From Bacteroidales bacterium (GTDB lineage Bacteria; Bacteroidota; Bacteroidia; Bacteroidales; P3): a stretch of DNA of 64,000 nt. Positions 4,893 to 62,566 of the stretch are shown piece after piece. The number at the start of each line of letters is the position of its first letter. Position 1 is the stretch's first letter. The translations under genes and the position numbers were made by a program. The DNA lies in the NCBI GenBank assembly GCA_017480225.1, contig JAFVBB010000013.1, positions 1 to 64,000 on the forward strand, in the 5' to 3' direction. The notes beneath the pieces were generated by a model, which ran no database searches, was not told where the DNA came from, and was given only the letters and a program-made list of their open reading frames with translations.

Positions 4893-4996
4893 GCCCCATC
4901 GGGCAAGAAAAAAAACGCCCGCCTGCCCTGACGTCGATGTCGGCGGCAAGTGCTGGTTTATAGGTGCTTATGAAAAGCCATTGCTGTATCTGGTTG

Positions 4997-5135
4997 AAAA
5001 CCAGCCTGGCAAGGCGTCAGGTCAATGTCAACACCGTCTGTTCTTCGATTGTTCTCCGATTGTTCTTCGATTGTTCTTCGATTTAGTATCGGAGAACAAT
5101 CGAAGAACAATCGGAGAACAATCGAAAAACAGACG
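4997..5135 (+). repeat. Hairpin element, copy 1 (symmetric subtype)
   Basis: A head of about 40 bp begins AACCAGCCTG and ends at CCGTC. Four 11-bp units follow, in order TGTTCTTCGAT, TGTTCTCCGAT and twice TGTTCTTCGAT (called A, B, A, A). After loop TTAGT come four complementary units of type B', A', B' and a mutated A' (ATCGAAAAACA), then GACG. Foldable core is 5035-5135. Four more copies occur in this window. It is between the 5' end of the MFS gene and the tRNA-Val terminator, outside any coding region. Confidence 0.95.
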
Positions 5136-5192
5136 TTCCAGGCAGCGTGCGGCCGCGAGCCTGTGAGGGCGTTTTTTTTGAGCCGTGCACTC

Positions 5193-10858: not shown

Positions 10859-10921
10859 GCACACTCCATAATGCACAGGCCGCCAGTGTGTTATGTTGCA
10901 GTGTCAGTGCATCTGCCTGAT

Positions 10922-11059
10922 AACCAGTCTGAAAAGGCATCAAGACCGTGTCAGGGCCGTCTGTTCTTCGATTGTTCTCCGATTGTTCTTCGATTGTTCT
11001 TCGATTTAGCATCGGAGAACAATCGAAGAACAATCGGACATCAATCGGAGAACAGGCGG
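10922..11059 (+). repeat. Hairpin element, copy 2 (GGACATCA subtype)
   Basis: Head starts AACCAGTCTG and runs into GGCCGTC. Left arm A-B-A-A, loop TTAGC, right arm B', A', the variant unit ATCGGACATCA, and B', then GGCGG. Foldable core 10957-11059. It lies about 60 bases beyond the upstream gene's terminator and 190 bases before the next promoter. The bases from 11060 to that promoter hold nothing else I can support. Confidence 0.95.
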
Positions 11060-22688: not shown

Positions 22689-22840
22689 GCCTGCAGGGCT
22701 ATGCCAACACCGTCTGTTCTTCGATTGTTCTCCGATTGTTCTTCGATTGTTCTTCGATTTAATATCGAAGAACAATCGAAGAACAATCGGAGAACAATCG
22801 AAGAACAGACGGCCTTGACACGGTGTCAGGGCTTTTTTTC
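22689..22840. repeat. Hairpin element, copy 3 (perfect palindrome, heads on both sides)
   Basis: The foldable core is 22710-22812. Left arm CCGTC plus A-B-A-A, loop TTAAT, right arm A', A', B', A' plus GACGG: 49 bp pair without a mismatch. Head-like sequence occurs on both flanks: GCCTGCAGGGCTATGCCAAC on the left, and GCCTTGACACGGTGTCAGGG on the right. The latter, read on the minus strand, resembles the head of copy 2. The right flank folds again (GACAC/GTGTC) and runs into GCTTTTTTTC, like a terminator. No gene is seen in 22613-22922. Confidence 0.95.
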
Positions 22841-33922: not shown

Positions 33923-34075
33923 TGGGGCATCGATTCCAGTCCTGCGAGAAGAAACGCGCCACCTTGTGCCATATTGTGCCGCAGGGCACATTTTTTGGCG
34001 GCCTGGTTCCGACAGGTGTGCATGAAGGTATTGTTTCACAAATGGTTACGATTGACAATCTTTGTATTGCTTTGA

Positions 34076-34214
34076 AAACCAGCCTGCAAGGGTATCAAGT
34101 CCGTGTCAACACCGTCTGTTCTTCGATTGTTCTCCGATTGTTCTTCGATTGTTCTTCGATTTAGTATCGGAGAACAATCGAAGAACAATCGGACATCAAT
34201 CGGAGAACAGGCAG
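34076..34214 (+). repeat. Hairpin element, copy 4 (GGACATCA subtype)
   Basis: Head AAAACCAGCCTGCAAGGG, core 34112-34214: left A-B-A-A, loop TTAGT, right B', A', the variant ATCGGACATCA, B'. The order of right-arm units is the same as in copies 2 and 5. It lies between two divergent genes. The stretch 33923-34075 holds no other feature I can support. Confidence 0.95.
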
Positions 34215-62286: not shown

Positions 62287-62428
62287 CCGTTTGTTCTCCG
62301 ATTGATGTCCGATTGTTCTTCGATTGTTCTCCGATTGCAAATCGAAGAACAATCGAAGAACAATCGGAGAACAATCGAAGAACAGACGGCCTTGGTATTG
62401 CTTTTATGCCTTGTTTGGCTGGTTTTCA
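62287..62428 (-). repeat. Hairpin element, copy 5 (reverse orientation, GGACATCA subtype)
   Basis: Read on the minus strand it has head AACCAGCC..GGCCGTC, left arm A-B-A-A, loop TTGCA, right arm B', A', ATCGGACATCA, B'. Foldable core 62287-62389. The right-arm order equals copies 2 and 4. It begins 33 bases past the proS terminator. 62429-62566 holds no gene. Confidence 0.95.
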
Positions 62429-62566
62429 GTGTGATATATCTTGCATGTTGCTATAACTGTTTGTTAATCAATCTTATTGCAGGGTGTATTTTTGTTGTTT
62501 CGTGGCGTGGTGCGGAGCTGTTGGGGCGGGCTCGCTTTTTTTTCGTGGTGTGTGCTTTTTTTTGTG

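Follow-up and report, generated by a model that had tools for sequence, protein, structure and literature searches.

A dispersed palindromic array of 11-bp units as a candidate protein-docking site between transcription units of a Bacteroidales genome

We describe a dispersed family of palindromic arrays, built from 11-bp units of about one helical turn each, in presumably untranscribed spacers of a Bacteroidales genome. Tentatively, and with somewhat less than even confidence, we interpret the element as a DNA-level binding array that would dock a putative oligomerizing protein between transcription units.

The five dispersed hairpin copies reported by the initial annotation were all present in the window (the whole 64-kb stretch of DNA that was analyzed), in which the two-unit pattern gave 30 matches as compared to 0 in 100 dinucleotide shuffles. 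Each core measured 93 bp and comprised four units, a 5-nt loop, and four complementary units. This layout agrees with the four-unit left arm, 5-base loop, and complementary arm first proposed, except that one copy is reversed and the tail-side arms vary in four copies. Because copy 62292 is reverse-oriented, its constant arm is the right one. The tail-side arm carried the variant unit TGATGTCCGAT in three copies (10962, 34117, and 62292) and TGTTTTTCGAT in copy 5039, and the arms of these four copies are therefore imperfectly complementary. Of the ~40-bp head that had been described, the sequence AACCAGCCTG was exact in copies 5039 and 34117, altered in copies 10962 (AACCAGTCTG) and 62292 (AACCAGCCAA, reverse strand), and hardly recognizable in copy 22715, for which reason the orientation of the last is uncertain. 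The element limits given at first were too narrow; conservation extends ~92 bp before the core and ~33 bp after it, such that copy 1 occupies about 4947-5164.

Table 1. Coordinates of the five copies of the element in the 64-kb window.
Feature	Position	Strand	Description
Copy 1 core	5039..5131	+	4 + 4 units of 11 bp, 5-nt loop
Copy 1 head	4947..5038	+	conserved, decaying away from core
Copy 1 tail	5132..5164	+	weakly conserved
Copy 2 core	10962..11054	+	tail-side arm with variant unit TGATGTCCGAT
Copy 2 head	10870..10961	+	
Copy 3 core	22715..22807	.	perfectly complementary arms; head scores 22 and 29 of 45
Copy 4 core	34117..34209	+	variant unit TGATGTCCGAT in tail-side arm
Copy 4 head	34025..34116	+	
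Copy 5 core	62292..62384	-	reverse orientation; variant unit TGATGTCCGAT in tail-side arm
Copy 5 head	62385..62476	-	

The host genome (2,053,254 bases in 22 contigs, 97.6% complete) yielded 475 matches to a three-unit half arm when up to three mismatches were allowed. We read 849,019 bases that held 222 of these matches and 66 elements, and scaling the ratio of elements to matches to all 475 gives an estimate of ~141 elements in the genome. Because many of the stretches read (most of one set and part of contig C7) were chosen where half-arm matches were listed, element density cannot be taken from the 66; contig C1, which was read continuously, held 12 elements in 260 kb. Core length was 11n + 5 in 66 of 66 elements (93 bp in 44 copies, 82 in 15, 104 in five, and 71 in two), and the loop was 5 nt in every one, yet it occurred as 20 sequences as parsed. 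The arms contained 4 + 4 units in 43 copies, 4 + 3 in 12, 4 + 5 in four, and other numbers in seven. For the 44 copies whose cores measure 93 bp, the mean identities of the head-side arm, the tail-side arm, and the loop were 0.98, 0.93, and 0.52, respectively. Successive 11-bp blocks of the head fell from 0.84 to 0.54, 0.48, 0.46, and 0.33, with a background of 0.26 beyond position -100, and the tail dropped through 0.58, 0.40, 0.31, and 0.28; the closest pair of heads was 0.73 identical over 90 bp. With heads and flanks so diverged and arms so alike, the copies look old, the arms being held alike or homogenized while the rest drifts. The head-side arm was near-constant, and the several variants of the tail-side arm (TGATGTCCGAT and TGTTTTTCGAT) were common to unlinked copies, which indicates that the copies descend from common masters. 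An in-phase degenerate unit was present on each flank (4.5 and 4.2 of 11 matches versus ~2.8 out of phase). Further out, autocorrelation of the head at 11 bp did not reach significance (p = 0.095), and a first impression of 11-bp phasing across the whole head was dropped as unsupported by this test. When the head was sought without the hairpin by use of a PSSM, 0 of 51 matches lay away from elements, and the head as a target site with empty copies was rejected on that ground. A CRISPR array was likewise rejected, as the units abut with no spacers between repeats.

According to our own hexamer gene caller (712 genes called), 0 of the 66 cores were inside genes, which agrees with the earlier statement that the copies lie only between them. 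The 64 elements with two neighbors were distributed over divergent, tandem, and convergent spacers (25, 31, and 8, respectively), which make up 35%, 51%, and 14% of the spacer base pairs, lengths to which the elements themselves add; element placement tracks the length of the spacer and not the convergence of gene ends. Start-facing sides numbered 82, and in 41 of them a TAnnTTTG promoter separated element and gene; the wrong strand gave 5, and spacers lacking an element gave 74 of 135. On the 48 stop-facing sides, a terminator-like site separated the element from the stop codon in 15 cases, as compared to 4 on the wrong strand and a baseline of 18 of 89. We conclude from these positions that the elements mostly sit between transcription units.

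The two-unit pattern, with one mismatch allowed, was detected in 10 of 190 genomes of the family including the host, all belonging to this genus, and in 1 of 119 genomes drawn across the order, which was the host itself. The concern raised at the outset that the copies might be found only here is removed by the nine carriers among the other 189 family genomes. Named carriers of the unit are uncultured Bacteroidales MAGs from sheep rumen (RGIG6769) and red deer as well as RUG737, and together with the TAnnTTTG promoters they indicate that the host is a Bacteroidales member of gut or rumen. Among the listed pairs of facing arms, the intervening gap was constant per species, being 5 modulo 11 in G048 (18/18), G108 (6/6), G076 (3/3), and G060 (2/2) and 4 modulo 11 in G087 (8/8) and G041 (1/1); these gaps were read by eye, and G048, G087, and G108 were equated with G196, G195, and G194, respectively, by equal counts. 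Heads differ between most carrier species, with one head common to G048 and G076. Outside the order, direct arrays of the same 11-mer (TCGAAGAACAA) were observed in at least one Limisphaerales, one Verrucomicrobia, and two Chloroflexi MAGs (L096, L102, L103, L104, and L107). None of the five such loci read had palindromic arms, and the recurrence of this 11-mer in distant phyla may be a coincidence among very many arrays. A long 11-bp array with an unrelated unit (GATGGTGTACG) was also seen in a Limisphaerales MAG (L188, 18365-18554). A viral contig collection gave no exact match to the two-unit string.

Tandem arrays were surveyed in 609,662 bases made up of 34 stretches, one from each of 34 further species of the genus and none longer than 20 kb. 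After clustering by period, 35 arrays were at 7 bp, 17 at 8, 37 at 11, and four at 10, with none at 4, 5, 13, 17, 19, or 23; periods in multiples of 3 were frequent and were taken as coding. After removal of L221 (all N), L140 (holding a site from the two-unit pattern search), and L138 (holding an array seen before), the remaining 31 samples contained 34, 15, and 31 arrays at 7, 8, and 11 bp, respectively, four at 10, and none at 13, and an 11-bp array was present in 18 of them. Six samples that represented other genera of its family contained three arrays at 7 bp, one at 8, and three at 22, but none at 11. In 14 samples from the order outside this family (223,295 bases, with two of the samples very short), there were two arrays at 8 bp and single ones at 10, 14, 20, and 22, and neither 7-bp nor 11-bp arrays. 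An inverted match of at least 10 nt, inside the array or within 80 bp of it, accompanied 11 of the 37 11-bp arrays (control, 0), 3 of the 35 7-bp arrays (control, 1), and 1 of the 17 8-bp arrays (control, 0). The genus samples held nine long hairpins, six of which were judged by eye to be built on 11-bp units; G026 had a perfect palindrome with 45-bp arms and a 5-nt loop, and G100 and G102 had imperfect arms of 50-52 bp. An exact 11-mer was common to 12 of 37 array pairs within genomes versus 28 of 1854 between genomes when unit-picked loci (L193-L209) were left out, for pairs that are not independent and that include some proS loci chosen after arrays had been seen there. The corresponding values were 11/33 and 27/1620 without L138, L140, and one neighboring pair, and 38/75 and 144/3328 with the unit-picked loci included. 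At least two copies of an own array family with conserved flanks occurred in several genomes, among them G055, G100, and G036, and some genomes held several unrelated units (1 of 10 pairs shared in G041, 2 of 10 in G113). On this sequence evidence, the 11-bp period is genus-wide and the unit is largely species-specific.

Other species have dispersed 11-bp families of their own, seen at L142 (5804-5878 and 16970-17052), L228 (5618, 12110, and 16410), and L136 (1733 and 13320), with the units TGTACAATATA, ATACCTATAGG, and CGACCTCAACA, each family having its own conserved flanks. Arrays of 7 and 8 bp (AATTGAG and GTTAATTC; L137, L143, L144, and others) are the second and third abundant classes, and some form long inverted pairs. 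By analogy, the frequent periods of 7, 8, and 11 bp recall the repeat lengths of ribbon-helix-helix arrays, which are 7 bp (omega), 8 bp (ParG/MetJ), and 11 bp (R1 ParR).

At one orthologous site, arrays appear from sequence comparison to recur while their sequence changes. The tlpA-like and DUF6029 genes that flank copy 3 were both present in 21 of 30 genomes read, including the host. Six of these had a gap of 26-55 bp with no array, and the other 15 (118-375 bp) comprised 10 with an 11-bp array, two with a 7-bp array, and three with none. Excluding the host, an 11-bp array was present in 9 of 14 genomes, or 9 of 15 when G109 is added (102 bp, array-free, as compared to 372 bp in the host). 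The units at this site were mostly unrelated, with one common to G014, G075, and G084. The baseline was an 11-bp array in 29 of 162 spacers of 100-600 bp, giving a Fisher p of 4e-4 for 9/14 at a single site that was selected because the host has a copy there. In the divergent spacer upstream of proS, 11-bp arrays occurred in 3 of 23 genomes, in the three longest spacers and each with another unit, and the host had none. A general test for shared neighbors was negative (6/14 versus 20/43, p = 1.0, after 9 and 29 further rows with a host spacer below 120 bp were dropped), and when 147 gene pairs that adjoin both in the host and in the sample from a relative were compared, a host element was present in a single pair; position is therefore not fixed genus-wide. 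A looser neighbor test (41/102 versus 59/411) was set aside because overlapping frames and the selection of loci around proS had inflated it; regulation of fixed genes was rejected for lack of shared neighbors. At the sites of copies 4 and 5, the upstream MBOAT-like gene was beside deoxyhypusine synthase in 0 of 29 relatives' loci, and the proS-cutC pair was not seen by eye in relatives.

The observed combination of a loop that is free in sequence but fixed in length, arms that hardly vary and do not covary, and flanks that fade is what would be expected of a phased protein-binding palindrome; it would not be expected of a terminator, a conserved RNA hairpin, or a mobile element that is still young. 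Among the options that the initial annotation had listed, a chromosome-binding site accordingly fits best. Head-to-tail short units in constant phase, as in iteron arrays, were found in all 66 elements, and an 11-bp unit is close to one turn of DNA, the helical period of which is given as 10-11 bp in PMC3940949. A putative oligomerizing DNA-binding protein would dock at many chromosomal sites and may read the units from a single side of the double helix; selection or genome-wide homogenization would keep the arms alike, and the unit would change in step with its protein from species to species. Consistent with the binding array are the contrast between near-identical arms and a variable loop and decaying head, the fixed arm gap per species elsewhere, the lack of pairing coupling within copies (see below), the promoters between element and gene, and the genus-wide period with other units. 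Several results weigh against it. RHH_1, the sole binding-protein family searched, had no match in the genome, and an RHH protein was rejected as binder on that account; phasing is not significant past one degenerate flanking unit; the elements are not, in the general neighbor test, beside the same genes in other species; the conserved arms could come from homogenization rather than selection; and the arm mismatches show a bias that an RNA would also allow. An older transposition step that seeded the copies is compatible with the binding array.

The main rival, which we consider somewhat unlikely, is a non-autonomous MITE- or REPIN-like mobile element, now old, that was spread in trans by a putative transposase and whose arms stay alike as a recognition site or through recombination between copies. 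It would account for the variant units and the head common to copies, which imply common masters, and for the shortness of array-free spacers, both in the six relatives at the tlpA-DUF6029 site and in G109; at the proS site, too, the three array-bearing spacers are the longest of 23. These array-free sister sites speak for the mobile-element option of the initial annotation, and other observations speak against it. The Y1/RAYT transposase family (PF01797, Y1_Tnp) had 0 matches in the 97.6% complete host genome (control matches in 5 of 14 genomes), on which ground a RAYT/REP reading was rejected. Conservation fades on both sides of the element rather than stopping sharply, and we saw no sharp ends. 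No recently duplicated pair of copies was found, the best head identity being 0.73, and the head was never encountered without the hairpin. A retron or DGR was rejected as well; the single reverse transcriptase gene of the genome (G000:C20:76410-77003; L152, 1006-2271; 421-aa ORF) is not linked to any element.

An unlikely alternative is that 11-bp minisatellites and palindromes grow in place, without function, by replication slippage and template switching. Arm length does vary by whole units, the genus is also rich in 7- and 8-bp arrays, and Verrucomicrobia and Chloroflexi MAGs carry the 11-mer of the element in direct arrays. However, growth in place does not make arms and head recur alike at 66 sites. 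Correction within a molecule should also couple the arms of each copy, and no such coupling was found; periods of 10 and 13 bp, moreover, are nearly absent (4 and 0). Loss of SbcD as the reason for palindrome tolerance was also considered. SbcD (TIGR00619) had no match in the host, which is 97.6% complete and full of long palindromes, and we found no clear link because 32 of 66 genus genomes scored above the cut-off and two of the seven unit carriers among the 66 (G076 and G108) have the protein.

A structured RNA, either a small RNA or a hairpin in mRNA ends, is very unlikely, and with it the untranslated RNA suggested by the initial annotation. The folds of both strands were much more stable than those of shuffled sequences (z = -12.4 and -15.2), as is true of any palindrome by construction. 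A search of Rfam at gathering thresholds returned only two tRNAs and nothing at the element. Arm-arm pairing within a copy was equal to that of shuffled copies (1833/1936 versus 1830.8, SD 4.1; 194 of 500 shuffles reached it), and no covariation between arms was detected. Head-tail pairing fell below the shuffled value (720 versus 761.5, SD 14.0, over 22 columns; all 500 shuffles reached it), a deficit that may be due in part to our having oriented each copy by whichever head was better. Among the joint unit states, a head-side T with a tail-side C-type unit, which would give a U-G wobble in a head-to-tail transcript, was commoner than the reverse; this excess is compatible with RNA and equally with a single ancestral arm. 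The elements lie upstream of promoters, TAnnTTTG inside the element was found in 2, 1, and 6 of 66 by three strand and region checks, and there was no bias of orientation relative to tandem genes (10 versus 13, with 17 of 64 ambiguous copies left out). Since arrays of 7 and 8 bp are frequent too, the A-form RNA helix was discarded as a reason for 11 bp. A transcription terminator or barrier at gene ends is hardly credible: elements do lie between transcription units and follow a terminator-like site on 15 of 48 stop-facing sides, but 25 of the 64 elements are in divergent spacers, where no terminator is needed, as compared to 8 in convergent ones, and the consensus 3' of the hairpin, GACGGCCTTGGCACGG, has no T-run. 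These results also bear out the initial view that the element is not simply the terminator of the preceding gene.

We found no described family with these features in Rfam or in the open-access literature searched, in keeping with the initial annotation. Small intergenic palindromic repeats and MITEs (ERIC, YPAL, Correia/NEMIS) are alike in being palindromic, multicopy, mostly intergenic, and 100-200 bp long, but as described in PMC2229807 they have no internal tandem unit, whereas the present elements have arms of 11-bp units, fading ends, and no terminal inverted repeats that could be placed, and they change unit between species while keeping the period. REP/REPIN sequences with RAYTs are also high-copy extragenic palindromes, but PMC3733652 gives REPs as 20-40 bp, many of them GTAG-tagged and with RAYTs, as compared to cores of 71-104 bp (93 bp in 44 of 66) and no Y1_Tnp match here. 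Plasmid centromeres with iterons (R1 parC/ParR and pSM19035 parS/omega) share arrays of short units that an oligomerizing protein binds singly, but as described in PMC5016525 they are few sites beside partition genes, in contrast to ~141 chromosomal copies and no RHH_1 match. The TAACTGA heptamer repeats (MacGregor 2015, PMC4679880) are similarly intergenic, multicopy short-unit arrays scattered over distant phyla; those, however, are direct repeats of 7 bp, most of them located immediately before start codons, whereas ours are 11-bp, palindromic, and upstream of promoters.

Dispersed bacterial palindromes are usually ascribed to transposase-driven spread or to terminators, and the present family fits neither well. 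The copies also matter for assembly; among the matches listed, several G087 contigs start within 70 bases of one. It is conceivable, although doubtful, that the arrays represent a new class of chromosomal site in which an 11-bp period and an often palindromic layout are kept genus-wide while the unit is rewritten in concert in each species, as would be expected if the sites co-evolve with a fast-changing protein that organizes or marks the chromosome. Centromere satellites and recombination-hotspot motifs evolve fast, and a spacing that is kept while the sequence is replaced per species would, if true, be a bacterial parallel to them. The family would then offer a way into the study of a putative nucleoid or partition protein in the uncultured Bacteroidales of gut and rumen.
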